From contig JAPKMS010000229.1 of NCBI GenBank assembly GCA_026645775.1, forward strand, positions 1-33,992: a DNA stretch of 33,992 nucleotides, given 5' to 3'. Shown one piece after another: positions 3,462 to 33,849 of this stretch. The translations under genes were made by a program, and so were the position numbers. The notes under the pieces were generated by a model. That model had not been told where the DNA came from. It did no database searches and saw only the letters and a list, made by a program, of their open reading frames with translations. The stretch's first letter is position 1. Each line of letters starts with the position of its first letter. Source of the stretch: Anaerolineae bacterium (GTDB taxonomy: Bacteria; Chloroflexota; Anaerolineae; CG2-30-64-16).

Positions 3462-3482
3462 AGCGTGTCCTTTCGGAAAACT

Positions 3483-3555
3483 GGGGGAACAGGTAAACAA
3501 GGAAACAAGTAGATAAGGCGCGTCCTCCTTGTTACCTTGTCTACCTGTCTATTCC
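3483..3555. repeat. Octamer-phased intergenic inverted repeat, locus B
   Basis: Arms 3489-3509 and 3528-3548 are 21 nt with two mismatches. Outer GGGGGAA (3483-3489) also matches TTCCCCC (about 3551-3557), across a 4-nt offset. Units read in octamers: ACAGGTAA, ACAAGGAA, ACAAGTAG on the left and CTCCTTGT, TACCTTGT, CTACCTGT on the right. The right end enters the last codons of the SPASM gene. Confidence 0.72.
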
Positions 3556-7607: not shown

Positions 7608-7623
7608 GTGAAACCTCCATGAG

Positions 7624-7668
7624 ATCAGCGAATCACGAATCAGAGGCACCTATTCGCCATTCGCTGAT
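7624..7668. repeat. Intergenic inverted repeat, locus C
   Basis: Arms 7624-7640 and 7652-7668 are 17 nt with two mismatches and an 11-nt loop. ATCAGCGA, ATCACGA, ATCAGAGG repeat at 8- and 7-nt steps. It fills most of the 66-nt gap between rtcB and the first radical SAM gene. It is the shortest and least regular member of the octamer-repeat family. Confidence 0.6.
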
Positions 7669-7673
7669 GTGTT

Positions 7674-18074: not shown

Positions 18075-18101
18075 CGAAGGGTCCCGGCAAATCGGCGAAC
18101 C

Positions 18102-18203
18102 GGTAGATTGGTAGATTGGGATACGGGTGGACACTCCACCAGTCTACCAACCAACCAACTAACCAACTAACTAACCAACCAACCAACTAACCAACCAGCC
18201 AAC
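18102..18203. repeat. Octamer/tetramer repeat array, locus D
   Basis: Two exact GGTAGATT units (18102-18117) precede a run of 4-nt units ACCA/ACTA from about 18145 to 18203. The left part is partly complementary to TCTACCAACC at the start of the run, so the array is an imperfect inverted repeat whose right arm has expanded. The run ends one base before the ATG of the next gene at 18205, leaving no Shine-Dalgarno sequence. Confidence 0.8.
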
Positions 18204-18204
18204 C

Positions 18205-19968
18205 ATGCACATCCCGATTCTGTACCAGGACCCCGATCTCCTTGTCATCGACAAGCCCGCCGGCATCCCGACCCACGCGTCGGACCCGGCCGATCCGTAT
18301 CCCAGCGACGCGTTGCGCATTGTCCAGGCGCAGGCGGGGCTGGGATACCTGGGCATGCATCAACGGCTGGATGCCGACACGTCGGGCGTGCTGGCCTTTG
18401 CGGCCCGGCGCGAGGCGAACCGAGGTTTGGCCGCGGCCTTTGAAGCGCATGCGGCCCGCAAGGTTTACGTCGCGCTGGTGCACGGCACACCGCGCCAGGC
18501 CGAGGGGTTGATCGACGCGGCCATCGTCCGCGATCGGGGCGAGCGGTATCGGGTGACCTCACCGAACGACCCACACGGGCTGGCCGCGCAGACGCGCTAT
18601 CGGGTGCTCTCTACCGTGCGCAGCGAGGGTTTTGGCCGGGCGGAAGCCGGGGCGCCCCGGGTCGCGGCCGCAAGGACCATGCCAAGCGCCACCTACAGCC
18701 TGCTGGAGATCAGCCCGGAAACCGGCCGCAGCCATCAGATCCGGCTGCATCTGGCGCACATCGGCTGCCCGGTGGTGGGCGATCCGCTCTATGGCCCCGC
18801 TGATCGGCCGGCGCCCCGTCTCTGTCTGCACGCACAGCGGCTCACGCTGCCACACCCAACCACCCATGAGCCGATCACCTTCACTGCGCCGACCCCGGCC
18901 TTGTTCGAGCGGCTGACGACCGGCCTGCCCGAGCTGGCGTTGGCCGCATCGGGCGTCCATGTGCGGGGGCTGATGCGGTTCCCCGATGCGCTGCGGGCCC
19001 TGCTGCGCCTGGCCGTCGAGCGTCGCACCCCGCTGCGGGCCGATCCGGGCACGTCGATCTATCGGTTGGTGAATGGTGCGGCCGATGGCTTGTTGGGGCT
19101 CACCGTCGATCGCTTCGGTGAGGCGCTGGTCGTCAGCCTGTACGACGATGATGGCCGCCTGCCGCCCCAGCCGATCCCGCCCGCGTTGGTGGCGGCCCTG
19201 GCCGAGGTCACCGGTGCGCAGCGCATCTATGTGAAGTACCGTCCCAAACAAGCTAGCCGTCTCTCCGACGATCAGATGGCGCTGCTCACCCCGCCCCAGC
19301 CGGTTTACGGCCCGGATCAGGGGGAGTTTGTCGCGCACGAGGGTGGGCTGACGTATCTGATTCGCCCCGGCGATGGGCTGAGCAGCGGCCTCTTCAGCGA
19401 TATGCGGGAGAGCCGGGGCCGGGTGCGGGCCTGGGCCGAGGGCCGGCGCGTGCTGAACTGTTTCGCGTACACGTGCGGCTTTGGGGTGGCTGCCATGGCG
19501 GGAGGCGCGCAGCGCGTGCTGAACCTCGATCTCGCCAAGGTGGCGCTGGCGTGGGGCCAGGATAATTACCGGGCGAATGGATTCGAGCCGGATGCGCACG
19601 ACTTTGTCTTCGGCGACGTGTTCGATTGGCTGGTGCGCCTGGCCCGGCGGGATGACCGTTTCGATCTGGTGATCCTCGATCCGCCCGGCTTCTCCCGCAC
19701 CAAGAGCCGCAAATTCGCCGCCGCGCAGGATTACGGCGAGTTAGCCGTCCTGGCTGCGCGCTGCGTCGCACCGGGTGGCCGGCTGCTGGCCTGCTGCAAC
19801 GTGGCCGAGTTGCCGTGGCGCAGCTTCCGCGATCGGCTGCTGTCCAGTCTCGCTGATGCGGGCCGGCCGGCGAAGGTCGGTGGTGTTTACCACGAGCCAG
19901 CCATCGATTTTCCGGCGCCGCCAGCCCAGGAGCCGTATTTGAAGATGGTGCTGCTAGATCTTGCCTGA
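18205..19968 (+). CDS. Fusion of RluA-type pseudouridine synthase and RlmI-type RNA methyltransferase
   Basis: 587 residues, two enzymes in one chain. Residues 1 to about 240 are an RluA-family pseudouridine synthase: ILYQDPDLLVIDKPAGIPTH, then HQRLDADTSGVLAF with catalytic Asp56, and GRSHQIRLHLAHIGCPVVGDPLYG. Residues about 250-587 match the RlmI-like class I SAM methyltransferases: SIYRLVNGAADGLLGLTVDR, GLSSGLFSDMRESRGRV, VLNCFAYTCGFGVAAMAGGA (SAM motif I), NLDLAK and DPPGFSRTK (catalytic region). Such enzymes modify 23S rRNA; the exact bases are not predictable here. The RlmI PUA domain is absent, and the synthase may serve as RNA binder. The ATG fits the family start but has no ribosome-binding site; a repeat array abuts it. 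Confidence 0.9.
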   Translation: MHIPILYQDPDLLVIDKPAGIPTHASDPADPYPSDALRIVQAQAGLGYLGMHQRLDADTSGVLAFAARREANRGLAAAFEAHAARKVYVALVHGTPRQAEGLIDAAIVRDRGERYRVTSPNDPHGLAAQTRYRVLSTVRSEGFGRAEAGAPRVAAARTMPSATYSLLEISPETGRSHQIRLHLAHIGCPVVGDPLYGPADRPAPRLCLHAQRLTLPHPTTHEPITFTAPTPALFERLTTGLPELALAASGVHVRGLMRFPDALRALLRLAVERRTPLRADPGTSIYRLVNGAADGLLGLTVDRFGEALVVSLYDDDGRLPPQPIPPALVAALAEVTGAQRIYVKYRPKQASRLSDDQMALLTPPQPVYGPDQGEFVAHEGGLTYLIRPGDGLSSGLFSDMRESRGRVRAWAEGRRVLNCFAYTCGFGVAAMAGGAQRVLNLDLAKVALAWGQDNYRANGFEPDAHDFVFGDVFDWLVRLARRDDRFDLVILDPPGFSRTKSRKFAAAQDYGELAVLAARCVAPGGRLLACCNVAELPWRSFRDRLLSSLADAGRPAKVGGVYHEPAIDFPAPPAQEPYLKMVLLDLA

Positions 19969-23223: not shown

Positions 23224-23225
23224 GT

Positions 23226-23340
23226 GGTAGATTGGTAAATTGGTAAACCGGTATATGGGGGGCGTCAGAGGCGATCTGTCGATCTATAAACTTCCCAATC
23301 TACCATCTACCAATTTACCGATTTACCAGGTTACCAAACA
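23226..23340. repeat. Octamer-phased intergenic inverted repeat, locus E
   Basis: The clearest member. Left units in strict 8-nt phase are GGTAGATT, GGTAAATT, GGTAAACC, GGTATATG (23226-23257). Right units are ACCAATTT, ACCGATTT, ACCAGGTT, ACCAAACA (23309-23340), preceded by CCCAATCT and ACCATCT. The halves are complementary and flank about 35 nt of ordinary sequence. It begins 3 nt after the dnaN stop and ends 2 nt before the recF ATG. Confidence 0.88.
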
Positions 23341-23342
23341 CC

Positions 23343-24572
23343 ATGCGGCTTAACCATCTTTCCCTCACCAACTTCCGCAACTACGCCCGGCTTGAGCTTG
23401 GGTTATCTGATCGGCTGACCGTATTTCAGGGCGCCAATGCCCAGGGCAAGACCAACCTGCTGGAGGCCATCCATCTGCTGGCCACCGGGCGATCGCCGCG
23501 CGTCGGGGCCGAGCGTGAGCTGATCAACTGGCTGGCGCTGGAGAGCTCGTTGCCCTACGCCCGGTTGGTGGCCGAGATCGGCGCGGCGGGCGATGCCCCC
23601 ACGGAGCGGTTGGAAGTGGTGCTGGAGCTGGCGCGTACGCCAGCGCCGGGTGGGGGCGGCGGTAACGGGCCAGTGGTGCGCAAGCAGGTGCGGATCAACG
23701 GCGTGCCGAAACGTGGCTTGGATCTGATTGGGCGGTTGCGGGTCGTGTTGTTCCTGCCCGAGGATGTGAGCCTGGTGGCCGGCGCGCCGACGGAGCGCCG
23801 GCGCTACCTGGATATCGCGCTATGCCAGATTTCGGCCAGCTACTGCCGCGCCTTGGGAGAATACAACAAGGTGCTCTCCCAGCGTAACGCGCTATTGCGG
23901 CGCTTGCGCGACGAGGGCGGCGATTCGGGGCAGCTTGCTTTCTGGGATGATCAGGCAGCCGAGCATGGCAGCGTGCTGTTGCAGCGCCGGGCGCACGCGG
24001 TCTCAGAACTCAATCGCCTGGCAGCCGAGCGCCAGCGCGACCTGACCGGGGGTGCGGAACGGTTACAGTTGGGGTATCTGCCCAGTCCAGACCCGGCGAA
24101 AGTTATCGCGAGCCGGTCGGCCACGGGCGGCGACCGGTTTGCCTTTGAGACGGCCGCGCGGGAGCAGACTGCTGGGTGGCTGTTGGCGCATCTGCGGGCC
24201 ACGCGGGGCCGCGATGTGGCCGCGGGCAGCTCGCTGAGCGGGCCGCACCGGGATGACATGGCGTTCACGGTCGAGGGCCATGATCTGCGCACCTTTGGCT
24301 CGCGCGGGCAACAACGCACGGCTGCGCTGGCCTTGAAGCTTGCCGAAGTTCAGATGATGCGGGAGGCGACGGGGGACATGCCGCTGCTGCTGTTGGATGA
24401 CGTCATGTCCGAGTTGGACGCCATCCGGCGCCGCACGCTGCTGGACGCATTGGCCCAGGTGGATCAGGCGTTGGTCACGACGACGGATTGGGATGATTTC
24501 ACACCGGAGTTATTGGCGCAGGCCCGGCGCTGGCAGGTGGCGCAGGGGGCGCTGGAACGGGTGACGGCGTGA
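23343..24572 (+). CDS. recF: DNA replication and repair protein RecF
   Basis: 409 residues. RecF is an SMC-like ATPase that helps load RecA at single-strand gaps. Seen: MRLNHLSLTNFRNYARLEL, Walker A GANAQGKTNLLEAI (Lys36, Thr37), the signature region SLSGPHRDDMAF and Walker B LLLLDDVMSELD. A Gly-rich insert (PAPGGGGGNGP, about residue 100) is unusual but lies in a variable loop. The ATG is where the family starts, but only an AGGT about 11 nt upstream could serve as a ribosome-binding site, because the repeat array fills the gap. Its last codons and the following bases (24560-24599) themselves read in octamers. The gene probably depends on the dnaN promoter. Confidence 0.96.
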   Translation: MRLNHLSLTNFRNYARLELGLSDRLTVFQGANAQGKTNLLEAIHLLATGRSPRVGAERELINWLALESSLPYARLVAEIGAAGDAPTERLEVVLELARTPAPGGGGGNGPVVRKQVRINGVPKRGLDLIGRLRVVLFLPEDVSLVAGAPTERRRYLDIALCQISASYCRALGEYNKVLSQRNALLRRLRDEGGDSGQLAFWDDQAAEHGSVLLQRRAHAVSELNRLAAERQRDLTGGAERLQLGYLPSPDPAKVIASRSATGGDRFAFETAAREQTAGWLLAHLRATRGRDVAAGSSLSGPHRDDMAFTVEGHDLRTFGSRGQQRTAALALKLAEVQMMREATGDMPLLLLDDVMSELDAIRRRTLLDALAQVDQALVTTTDWDDFTPELLAQARRWQVAQGALERVTA

Positions 24573-24599
24573 ACCGGTGACACGGTGACGGGGTGCGGA
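24560..24599 (+). repeat. Possible octamer repeat at the recF end
   Basis: Five 8-nt units in phase: GGTGACGG, CGTGAACC, GGTGACAC, GGTGACGG, GGTGCGGA. The run begins inside the last recF codons and ends at the rsmG stop codon. No complementary half is seen, so membership of the intergenic family is uncertain. Confidence 0.45.
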
Positions 24600-29720: not shown

Positions 29721-31673
29721 CTATTTCACTTGATAGGGCACATTGGTGATCATGATGCCCGGTTTGAAGAGCAGCGCCAGCCGCAGCCAGGTGGCCGTCT
29801 GGGCGTGTAACAGGTTATGCCACCAGTATTTCGGTACGAATTGGGGCACGACGATGGTGATAACCTCGTTGGGCTGGCGCTGGGCGATGATTTGCTCGAT
29901 GTAGCTGAGCAACGGCTCCAGCAGCAGCCGATAGGGCGAATCCAGCACTTGCAGCCGCACACCGCCGCCCCACATATCCCATTTCCGTTGGACCTTTTCG
30001 GTCTCCTCCGGGTCCAGCGAGATGTAGACCGCCGTCACATCAGCCGAGAGGACTTGGGCATAGGCCAGCGCGGCCAGCGAGCCGCGATGTACGCCGCTGA
30101 TCGGCAAGATCACGCGGTGGCGGAGCTTGCGCGGTGGTTCGCCGAACTGTTCCAACGATAGGTTGAGCGCCAGGTTTTTGTAGTGCCGACGAATACCGCT
30201 GAGGCCCAGGACAATCAGCGGAACCAGGATCAGAACAATCCAAGCGCCATCCCGGAATTTGGTGGTGGCGAAGACGAGCGCGATCACGGCCGTCAAGATG
30301 GCGCCAAAGCCGTTGATGAGCATCTTGAACTGCCAGCTGGACTCGAAGCGTAAGGTTGAGCCGCGCTCTTTGACCTCTTGGCCGGGTTCCAGGTGGCCGA
30401 TTTTCCACCAGCGTCGGGCCATGCCAGACTGCGAAAGCGTGAAAGAGAGGAACACGCCGATGGCATACAGCGGGATCAACGCGGTCACGCTGGCCTTGAA
30501 GACGATGACGAGCAGCGAGGCGATGAGCGCCAACGCGGCGATGCCTCGGGAGAAGACGAGCCGGCTGCCGCGATAGGCGAGCTGGCGCGGCAAGAAGCCG
30601 TCATTGGCCAGCAGCGCGCTGAGGCGCGGGAAGTCGGCGAACGAGGTATTTGCGGCCATGATCAGGATCAGCGTGGTCGCCGAGATCACGGCCAGGTAGA
30701 GCACGTTGCGGCCATCGTAGAGGGTGCGCGCCAACTGCGAGATCACCGTCTCCGCCTCAGAGGGGACTGCGCCGATCTTGACCGCCAGGAAAGTGATGCC
30801 CAGCAGCAGGCTGCCCAGGATGCTGGACATCCAAATCAGCGTGATGCCGGCATTGCGGCTGCGAGGCACGCGAAAAGCCGGGATGCCGTTGGAGATGGCC
30901 TCAACGCCGGTGAGTGCGGTCGTGCCACTGGAGAATGCGCGCAGGATCAGGAACAGCGAGAGGGCCTGCGCACCATGCAACATCTCCATGGGAGGCGGAT
31001 CAGACACCAGCCCCAGGCTGCCGGATAAATAACGTACCAGGCCCACGATCACGGTGATGAACATCATGGCGATGAAGAAGTAGGTCGGAATGGCGAAGAT
31101 CATGCCCGACTCTTTGACGCCACGCAGGTTGATCAGCATGACGAACGCAACCAGGACTACGGCGATCTCCACCCGCCAAGGGAAGAGCGCGGGAAATGCG
31201 GACGTGATTTGTGCGACGCCGGAGGAGATGGAGACGGCGACCGTCAGAATGTAATCGGTGAGCAGGGCCGCGCCTGCAGTTTGTGCAGGCAACTCGCCCA
31301 GGTTATCGCGCGCGACGATGTAGGCGCCACCCCCGCTCGGATAGGCATGGATGGTTTGCTCGTAGGAGATTGTCAGGATCACCAGCAGGATAGCGATGGC
31401 GAACGCCAGGGGCAGGGCGTTCACGAATGCGGCTGCGCCGGCGGCGGCCAGCACAACCAGCATTTCTTGGGTGGCGTACGCCACGGAAGACATCGCATCC
31501 GACGAGAAGACCGCCAGGCCGATGGCCTTGCCGATGGCCTGGTGGGGCGCATCTGCAGTGGCCAGGGGGCGGCCGATGAGCCAGGTGCGCAGCGAGCGGC
31601 CGGGCTGATAATCAGCGGTGCGGTGCAAGACGTCAGCGCCCTGTTTGAGTTCAGGTGGTTTCATGGGCTCCAT
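29721..31673 (-). CDS. kimA: KimA-like potassium importer (APC/KUP superfamily)
   Basis: 650 residues. About twelve hydrophobic segments between residues 50 and 500, then a cytosolic USP-like domain (HRVILPISGVHRGSLAALAYAQVL and VITIVVPQFVP). In B. subtilis KimA, a high-affinity K+ importer inhibited by c-di-AMP, residues I recall as important are D36, Y43, D117, Y118 and S125. Here D59 and Y66 (FSSDAMSSVAY), and D140, Y141 and S148 (LLTDYILTVAVS), keep exactly the same spacings. Two RCK genes follow directly, supporting K+ as substrate. The ATG at 31673 has no good ribosome-binding site; an in-frame ATG at 31664 is an alternative. A near-identical paralogue lies divergently at 31906. Confidence 0.85.
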   Translation of the reverse strand: MEPMKPPELKQGADVLHRTADYQPGRSLRTWLIGRPLATADAPHQAIGKAIGLAVFSSDAMSSVAYATQEMLVVLAAAGAAAFVNALPLAFAIAILLVILTISYEQTIHAYPSGGGAYIVARDNLGELPAQTAGAALLTDYILTVAVSISSGVAQITSAFPALFPWRVEIAVVLVAFVMLINLRGVKESGMIFAIPTYFFIAMMFITVIVGLVRYLSGSLGLVSDPPPMEMLHGAQALSLFLILRAFSSGTTALTGVEAISNGIPAFRVPRSRNAGITLIWMSSILGSLLLGITFLAVKIGAVPSEAETVISQLARTLYDGRNVLYLAVISATTLILIMAANTSFADFPRLSALLANDGFLPRQLAYRGSRLVFSRGIAALALIASLLVIVFKASVTALIPLYAIGVFLSFTLSQSGMARRWWKIGHLEPGQEVKERGSTLRFESSWQFKMLINGFGAILTAVIALVFATTKFRDGAWIVLILVPLIVLGLSGIRRHYKNLALNLSLEQFGEPPRKLRHRVILPISGVHRGSLAALAYAQVLSADVTAVYISLDPEETEKVQRKWDMWGGGVRLQVLDSPYRLLLEPLLSYIEQIIAQRQPNEVITIVVPQFVPKYWWHNLLHAQTATWLRLALLFKPGIMITNVPYQVK

Positions 31674-31905: not shown

Positions 31906-33849
31906 GTGCCCAATATGGATCAAGACAATAATACCCCAGTCCAACATCGCACGGATGCGTTTCGGCCGCGTAATTCTTGGCAGACGTGGTTAATTGGGCG
32001 TCCCCTGCAAACGGCGGACGCGCCGTATGAGACGATCGGCAAGCTTGTCGGTCTGGCGGTTTTTGCCTCCGACGCACTCTCCTCGACGGCGTACGCGACG
32101 CAAGAAATCCTCTTTATTCTGGCCGCCGCCGGCGCAGGGGCGTTCGCCTATGCCTTCCCGATTTCTATCGTGATCGTGGGCTTGCTGGCGATCGTCACCC
32201 TGTCGTATGAGCAGATTATCCACGCCTATCCGGGCGGCGGCGGCGCGTATATCGTTGCGCGCGATAACCTGGGCGAATTGCCAGCTCAGGTCGCTGGCGC
32301 ATCGTTGCTCACCGACTACATCCTCACTGTGGCGGTGTCCATCTCGTCCGGCGTGGCGCAGGTGACGTCGGCCTTCCCTGCGCTTTACGAGTATCGCGTT
32401 GAGATTGCGGTCGGGCTGGTGTTGTTCATGATGCTGGTGAATCTGCGGGGGGTGCGGGAATCCGGGGCGGTTTTTGCGATCCCCAGTTACTTCTTCCTGC
32501 TGGTGATGTCGCTGACCGTGCTCGTGGGGATGTTCCGGTATGTGATGGGGTCATTGGGGCAGGTTGCGGGGCCCCCGCCGATCGAAACGCTCCACACGGG
32601 TCAGGCGATCTCGTTGTTCCTGATTTTGCATGCGTTCTCCAGCGGCACGACCGCACTCACCGGTGTTGAGGCCATCTCCAACGGCATCACAGCGTTCCGG
32701 GAGCCCCGCAGCCGCAATGCCGGCATCACGCTGATCTGGATGTCATCCATCCTGGCGGTTCTTTTCCTCGGAATTACCTTCTTGTCCGGGCAAATCAGTG
32801 CGGTCCCTTCGGAGATGGAGACGGTGATCTCACAATTGGCGCGCACGGTCTTCGGCGGACGAAACGTGATTTACCTGGCCATCATCGCGGGGACGATGGT
32901 GATCCTGGTGATGGCAGCCAATACGTCCTATGCGGGTTTCCCCCGGCTCAGTGCGCTCTTGGGACAGGATGGTTTCCTGCCGCGCCAACTGGCGTATCGC
33001 GGCAGCCGACTGGTCTACTCGCGCGGCATCGTGGCGCTGGCGCTTGTGGCCTGCGTGCTGATCATCGTCTTTCAGGCGAGTGTCACGGGGCTGATCCCGT
33101 TGTACGCCATCGGCGTTTTCCTCTCCTTCACCCTATCGCAAGCGGGCATGGCGCGGCGCTGGTGGAAGACGGGGCGGTTGGCGACGGGCCAAGCGATCGA
33201 GGAGCGCGGTTCGGTGCTGCGTTACGAGCGAGGCTGGCCGACCAAGATGATCATCAACGGCTTCGGCGCTCTCTGCACCACCCTCGTGACGTTGGTTTTT
33301 GCGGTCACTAAGTTCCGCGATGGTGCGTGGGTCGTGCTGATCCTGATCCCGGTGCTGGTGGTTGGGTTCTCGGCTATTCACCGGCATTACCGGCGTCTGG
33401 CCGGACGGCTCTCCCTGGATCAATTCGCTGAGCCGCCGCGGATCTCGCGCCACCGCGTGATCCTGCCGATCAGCAGCGTGCACCAGGGCACCCTGGCCGC
33501 GCTGCGTTATGCTGTGGCCCTCTCCGACGACGTGACGGCCGTGCATGTCTGTCTTGAGCCCGGGGATGCCCCGAAGATTCAGCAAAAGTGGGAGATGTGG
33601 GGCAAGGGTGTGCGGTTGGTGATCCTGGATTCGCCCTACCGCTTGATGATCGAACCCTTGCTGCGTTACATCGAGGAGATCGCGGCAAAGCGGCAGCCGA
33701 ATGAAATCATCACGATCGTCGTGCCGCAGTTCGTGCCCAAACGCCGGTGGCACAACCTGCTGCACGCCCAAACGGCCACCTGGTTGCGATTGGCCCTGTT
33801 GTTCAAACCCGGGATTGTCGTGACGGATGTGCCGTATCAGGTGGAATGA
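31906..33849 (+). CDS. kimA: KimA-like potassium importer, second paralogue
   Basis: 647 residues, alignable end to end with the divergent gene at 29721-31673; most positions look identical by eye, with differences mainly at the N-terminus and in some loops. D56, Y63, D137, Y138 and S145 hold the same spacing as the KimA K+-site residues. The C-terminal USP-like domain (HRVILPISSVHQGTLAALRYAVAL, IITIVVPQFVP) is kept. It starts at a GTG with AGGA 8 nt upstream; the ATG at 31915 is possible but too far from that site. It stands alone on its strand and ends at a strong terminator. Divergent duplicates may answer to different signals, since their leaders differ. K+ as substrate is inferred from family and neighbours. 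Confidence 0.85.
   Translation: MPNMDQDNNTPVQHRTDAFRPRNSWQTWLIGRPLQTADAPYETIGKLVGLAVFASDALSSTAYATQEILFILAAAGAGAFAYAFPISIVIVGLLAIVTLSYEQIIHAYPGGGGAYIVARDNLGELPAQVAGASLLTDYILTVAVSISSGVAQVTSAFPALYEYRVEIAVGLVLFMMLVNLRGVRESGAVFAIPSYFFLLVMSLTVLVGMFRYVMGSLGQVAGPPPIETLHTGQAISLFLILHAFSSGTTALTGVEAISNGITAFREPRSRNAGITLIWMSSILAVLFLGITFLSGQISAVPSEMETVISQLARTVFGGRNVIYLAIIAGTMVILVMAANTSYAGFPRLSALLGQDGFLPRQLAYRGSRLVYSRGIVALALVACVLIIVFQASVTGLIPLYAIGVFLSFTLSQAGMARRWWKTGRLATGQAIEERGSVLRYERGWPTKMIINGFGALCTTLVTLVFAVTKFRDGAWVVLILIPVLVVGFSAIHRHYRRLAGRLSLDQFAEPPRISRHRVILPISSVHQGTLAALRYAVALSDDVTAVHVCLEPGDAPKIQQKWEMWGKGVRLVILDSPYRLMIEPLLRYIEEIAAKRQPNEIITIVVPQFVPKRRWHNLLHAQTATWLRLALLFKPGIVVTDVPYQVE

Follow-up and report, generated by a model that had tools for sequence, protein, structure and literature searches.

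Hundreds of the gaps between neighbouring genes in the genome of this Anaerolineae bacterium and in those of its relatives carry hairpins whose arms consist of a tandemly repeated word of 7 or 8 letters. The architecture is of the same kind as that of the heptamer arrays of Xanthomonas and Cyanobacteria; what is new corresponds to the octamers, the many words per genome and the replacement of one word by another at orthologous spacers. The explanation favoured here, to which we give an even chance of being correct, is that these intergenic hairpins are two inverted degenerate 7- or 8-nt arrays that arise in one founding event, change by slippage and probably have a REP-like role in RNA. No description of such arrays in Chloroflexota was found in the open-licence literature.

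Array hairpins in the window

The window, i.e. the whole stretch of 33,992 nt that was analysed, belongs to a draft genome of 4.38 Mb in 478 contigs whose closest named relatives are Anaerolineae MAGs. Genes were called with a codon-bias model and each spacer was scored for its best inverted repeat and its best tandem period against dinucleotide shuffles; for the loci of the window, period 8 was compared with 1000 such shuffles and inverted-repeat scores with 300. These loci are as follows:

841-934, + strand: spacer between a pyruvate:ferredoxin oxidoreductase gene (1-840; NCBIfam TIGR02176, C-terminal part) and a dihydroorotate-dehydrogenase-like gene (935-1927)
3462-3548, - strand: spacer of two radical-SAM genes (both on the - strand), inverted repeat at 3489-3548 with units ACAAGGAA / GGTAAACA
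7624-7668 (spacer 7608-7673), - strand: hairpin ATCAGCGAATCACGAATC...ATTCGCCATTCGCTGAT between a radical-SAM gene and rtcB
18075-18204, + strand: spacer between the aspartate--tRNA(Asn) ligase gene and an RluA/methyltransferase fusion gene, inverted repeat at 18104-18161
23224-23342, + strand: dnaN-recF spacer, filled entirely, inverted repeat at 23225-23328
about 24569-24595, + strand: one-armed octamer array of GGTGACAC type at the recF stop codon, convergent junction with rsmG/gidB

The original prediction, that period 8 and an inverted repeat occur together at five junctions, holds beyond all shuffles at four of them. In 841-934, the arms (850-869 and 884-903) are made of octamers of the AAGGAAAC type and leave the Shine-Dalgarno sequence AAAGGA outside the hairpin; the period-8 score of 20 was reached in 0/1000 shuffles, the inverted repeat in 0/300, and the RNA fold has z values of -5.5/-4.4. 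The spacer 3462-3548 scores 12 for period 8 and 33 for the inverted repeat (0/1000 and 0/300 shuffles, respectively). In the dnaN-recF spacer, where units are GGTAGATT/GGTAAATT on the left and AATCTACC/AATTTACC on the right, the corresponding values are a period-8 score of 15 (0/1000), an inverted repeat found in 0/300 shuffles and RNA fold z values of -6.1/-4.9. The fourth spacer, 18075-18204, has the highest period-8 score (46, 0/1000 shuffles) together with an inverted repeat of 24 (0/300), its left arm being GGTAGATT twice and its right arm a long ACCAACTA array (4/8-nt); pairing is short and whole-spacer RNA folding reaches z values of just -1.7/-2.0, while folding is strong at the other four of the five loci. 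The junction that departs from the prediction is 7608-7673, a hairpin (inverted-repeat score 24, 0/300 shuffles as high) with no period 8, its score being matched by 232/1000 shuffles. A possible sixth site, proposed at 24560-24599, proved to be a period-8 run (24569-24595; score 11, reached by 0% or 2% of 200 shuffles depending on the stretch taken) with no inverted repeat significant against shuffles, and is thus one-armed.

Other features of the window include a canonical intrinsic terminator with a GC hairpin and a T-run between convergent genes (1928-2033), which contrasts with the array hairpins, a single gene (18205-19968) in which an RluA-type pseudouridine synthase is fused to an RlmI-like RNA methyltransferase domain, and two similar, divergently transcribed amino-acid-transporter-like genes (29721-31673 on the - strand and 31906-33849 on the + strand). 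No match above the gathering score was obtained in an Rfam scan of the window, and a tRNA scan detected none.

Abundance, words and orientation

The genome survey relied on an unbiased 205-kb sample of stretches with 86 spacers of 40-500 nt, of which 36 have a significant hairpin; a significant period was found in 17, both features in 10 and a 7/8-nt array in 13. Across spacers, period and pairing go together (OR 3.3, p=0.0005); nevertheless, 17 of 43 7/8-nt arrays (about 40%) are one-armed, and pairing is therefore not needed everywhere. The 8-nt step first taken to be common to all loci is seen at four of the five junctions but is not the rule outside the window: in six genomes of the family, with the window left out, period 7 is significant in 15 spacers, period 8 in 15, period 15 in 5 and period 14 in 4, besides a few others. 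The 15-nt higher-order repeats detected at two loci, L160 (genome G005, AAGGAGAGAGTAGAC) and L251 (G006, TTGGTAGATTGGTGG), combine an octamer and a heptamer and possibly bridge the two unit lengths. Arrays of 7 or 8 nt are scarcer in distant families of the class Anaerolineae (odds ratio 2.7, p=0.002).

Many words coexist within one genome, such as GGTAGATT, AAGGAAAC, GCGAATCA, AGGGACC, AGGAGTC, GAAGGTTC and GGAATGT. That a family of phased short units extends over the whole genome is borne out by GGTARATTGGTARATTGG, which occurs 70 times in the window genome, its reversed control giving 0 matches in any genome searched. A lack of the pattern in the rest of the genome, which would have refuted the original prediction, is thus not what is seen. 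Its counts among relatives are 465 in G006, 275 in G009, 56 in G005, 2 in G007 and 0 in both G001 and G003, and it is found again in distant families (251 in G133, 41 in G027), with 251 versus 0 between genomes of a single genus (g60). Within the class, the exact AGGAGTC pair is nearly limited to the family of the window genome. Another reversed control pattern, GGACTGAGGACTGAGGA, gave 20 matches in G013, a genome that seems to have GGACTGA as a word, and one in G033.

Some words are also found beyond the phylum. When arrays were compared with plasmid records, the AATTCGC array of locus L024 matched 19, of which 16 are from Nostoc, Trichormus or Calothrix, and the AGGAGTC array matched 14, of which 13 are cyanobacterial; plasmid A of Trichormus carries a paired AGGAGTC hairpin, again with the G-rich arm first. 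The sole non-cyanobacterial record matched by AGGAGTC, a plasmid of Pseudomonas silvicola (CP093281.1), has ten array matches. No plasmid record was matched by the octamer GGTAGATT, and a permuted octamer hairpin used as a BLAST control matched three E. coli records, so that a few chance matches are to be expected, yet without concentration in Cyanobacteria. As the comparison covered just four arrays and a single permuted control, and as plasmid collections sample bacteria in a non-random way, this sharing of words across phyla is to be taken as a lead rather than as a measured rate.

The fixed left/right polarity that had been predicted was confirmed: the G-rich arm is the 5' arm, on either strand, in 49 of 52 periodic hairpins as compared to 45:44 in non-periodic ones, and also by 20:3 for words other than GGTA. 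Because the G-first arrangement remains the same after reverse complementing, it belongs to the hairpin itself and does not reflect gene direction. At 48 co-directional periodic loci, the hairpin starts at a median of 7.5 nt past the upstream stop codon, and the Shine-Dalgarno sequence is left outside in 36.

Orthologous spacers and arm evolution

Spacers that are periodic and paired in the window genome are likewise so in 16/35 cases among relatives versus 22/181 for random spacers of the family (p=1.7e-5, an optimistic value because relatives share history and are not independent observations), and a hairpin of any type is found in 27/35 versus 61/181 (p=2.8e-6). When an orthologous spacer has an array hairpin, however, the word is usually another one. 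One series is that of the pyruvate:ferredoxin oxidoreductase / dihydroorotate-dehydrogenase-like spacer, with array hairpins in six of the seven relatives in which it measures at least 40 nt and a plain GC-rich hairpin in the seventh. The word there is AAGGAAAC in the window genome, and CGTGGTA, ACAAGGAGAGAGTAGA, CAAGTAGA, GCGAATCA, GGTAGATT and ACAAAGAC in the relatives; the ACAAG-like words may be related by descent, whereas the others are unrelated and of different unit length. The dnaN-recF spacer has arrays in G001 (GAGTAAC), G004 (TTGGATA) and G006 (GGTAGATT/GGTAAGTT), those of G001 and G004 differing in word from that of the window genome. That structure and position are kept, and not sequence, is what these comparisons suggest.

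Gains and losses were also found. The aspS-rluA spacer is periodic and paired in G004, G006 and G009, one-armed in G007 and has no array in the others, and the spacer that precedes dnaN, which has no array in the window genome, carries arrays in G006 and G009. At L012:7086-7207, the window genome has a 122-nt spacer with arrays of two heptamer words, AGGAGTC followed by CAGCTTC. Six relatives have no spacer there, their orthologous genes overlapping or adjoining each other, and in G008 the two genes are 38 nt apart, with a related word in between. The locus looks like an array gain in situ.

Considering all words, the arms of a locus pair far better with each other than with the arms of other loci (31.9 versus 14.2), which points to one founding event for both. 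At the 15 loci of the GGTA word family, left arms score no higher with the right arm of their own locus than with those of permuted loci (32.0 versus 34.4, p=0.97), and pairing thus follows from the one word that is common to both arms. What the arms have in common is the founding word and not the later changes. These values bear on the idea, put forward when the hairpins were first noticed, that pairing is maintained or that one arm continues to template the other by quasi-palindrome correction. The use of one word by both arms of a locus is what such templating would give, but the GGTA family contradicts its continuing action, as do the independent changes of the arms in the congeneric G006 and G009: their aspS-rluA spacers share an identical loop, with a difference of 40 nt (5 x 8) between the right arms and of 15 nt between the left ones, which fits with slippage in each arm separately. 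Continuing templating is therefore very improbable, although templating may act at the birth of a locus. Differences by whole units within each arm are thus what the comparison of orthologous junctions revealed between these two genomes, together with words that usually change from one species to another.

Known repeats and candidate explanations

The original prediction stated that no named element has this design, which has to be corrected in view of two systems. In Xanthomonas, intergenic heptamer arrays of (GGGAATC)n form 70-75 convergent pairs per genome, the majority being transcribed with both G- and C-rich strands among the transcripts (Rehm et al. 2015, PMC4692102). In Nostoc, the P6b stem of the trnL(UAA) intron is composed of 7-nt words of one of two unrelated types (TDNGATT or NNTGAGT), which have been swapped repeatedly while the fold was kept, with whole-unit indels on one or both sides (Kaasalainen et al. 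2015, PMC4476775). The arrays described here share with the former a short G-rich tandem unit in spacers and a convergent pairing with the G-rich arm first, and with the latter a stem of short words, the replacement of the word under a conserved fold and the whole-unit indels. They differ from those of Xanthomonas in having many words instead of one per genome, octamers besides heptamers (the window loci have period 8, and in the family the two unit lengths are equally frequent, whereas arrays of the Rehm or STRR type have a heptamer unit) and words that are themselves swapped at orthologous spacers. The words also depart from GGGAATC/GGGANTN with its G-quadruplex potential: GGTAGATT, AAGGAAAC, AGGAGTC and others have GG and not GGG runs, hence no obvious G-quadruplex. 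Unlike P6b, which is a single locus in a group I intron, hundreds of spacers are concerned.

Two further groups of heptamer arrays are comparable. The STRR of Nostocales are intergenic and have at least two words in common with those found here (AATTCGC, AGGAGTC) but belong to another phylum, and the octamer GGTAGATT has no plasmid match. The TAACTGA repeats of Beggiatoaceae, Cyanobacteria and Bacteroidetes, in which one word is likewise common to several phyla, are direct repeats with one inverted case in the genome (MacGregor 2015, PMC4679880), as opposed to the inverted pairs described here. REP elements have a conserved sequence of 20-40 nt with a GTAG/CGTC tag (PMC3733652). The array hairpins resemble REP/BIME in being extragenic, close behind stop codons and mostly between co-directional genes, and differ from them in that only the architecture is common, with words that vary between loci and unrelated loops and flanks.

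Transcription terminators, whether intrinsic or Rho-dependent via the C-rich arm, would account for strong RNA hairpins with a C-rich, G-poor 3' arm in a genome that encodes Rho. As predicted, U-tracts are scarce: four T directly follow the hairpin in only 4 of the 48 co-directional periodic loci. Moreover, non-periodic hairpins occupy 16/32 convergent junctions, as terminators should, as compared to 3/32 for periodic ones, and the periodic hairpins are found within gene pairs such as dnaN-recF. On the grounds of the scarcity of T-runs and of periodic hairpins at convergent junctions, this reading was rejected and we regard it as improbable. Dispersal by a transposase, as a mobile element of the MITE or REP/RAYT type, is in line with the occurrence of one word at many unlinked loci, with its patchiness in distant families and with two Y1-transposase (Y1_Tnp) domain matches in the genome. 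Yet there is no fixed length or shared body, orthologous sites differ in word, and the loops and flanks of the GGTA loci show no more similarity to one another than shuffled sequence does, which led to the rejection of a mobile element with a shared body and makes a mobile element of either type highly improbable.

A neutral product of mutation, in which 7-8-nt slippage and hairpin-mediated inverted duplication act wherever spacers tolerate them and no function is involved, is a possibility that we consider doubtful but real. Degenerate words, whole-unit indels, one-armed arrays and the very uneven copy number among close genomes (see the counts of GGTARATTGGTARATTGG above for G006, G007, G001 and g60) are all expected from it; against it are the polarity of 49:3, the reoccupation of the same spacers by another word or even another unit length, and the placement right behind stop codons with the Shine-Dalgarno sequence spared.

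In the explanation favoured here, one event would found a locus as an inverted pair of a word and the arms would then lengthen or shorten by replication slippage, the spacers of co-transcribed genes retaining the array because an RNA hairpin, irrespective of how it is spelled, may be of use there or at any rate do no harm. Whole-unit changes arm by arm, the conservation of position, the different words at the same spacer and the G-first polarity speak for it, as do the apparent array gain at L012, the strong RNA folding at four of the five window loci and the association of period with pairing. Against it, the occurrence of one word at dozens of unlinked loci goes beyond purely local slippage, and vertical persistence with a fast turnover of words would equally conserve position without function. 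Placement after the stop codon, a Shine-Dalgarno sequence outside the hairpin and the lack of both a T-run and enrichment at convergent junctions bring these structures nearer to REP than to terminators. The roles of REP in mRNA protection are established. The most likely role of the array hairpins would be REP-like, with an RNA hairpin between cistrons that stops 3'-to-5' exonucleases and determines how stable the upstream mRNA is relative to the downstream one, without being a terminator.

A more specific proposal, put forward tentatively and with well under an even chance, is that of a sequence-agnostic class of intercistronic hairpins, in which selection or a dedicated machinery would preserve, at particular operon junctions, a hairpin with the G-rich arm first, the word itself being exchanged between species out of a small lexicon partly common to Chloroflexota and Cyanobacteria. 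To our knowledge, no function has been assigned to intergenic heptamer arrays in the decades since they were recognised. With the word replaced at orthologous spacers, structure can be told apart from sequence, which opens the question to tests: should unrelated words prove interchangeable, it is the hairpin that counts. Such replacement also offers a comparative handle on the birth of arrays and on the G-rich-first order.
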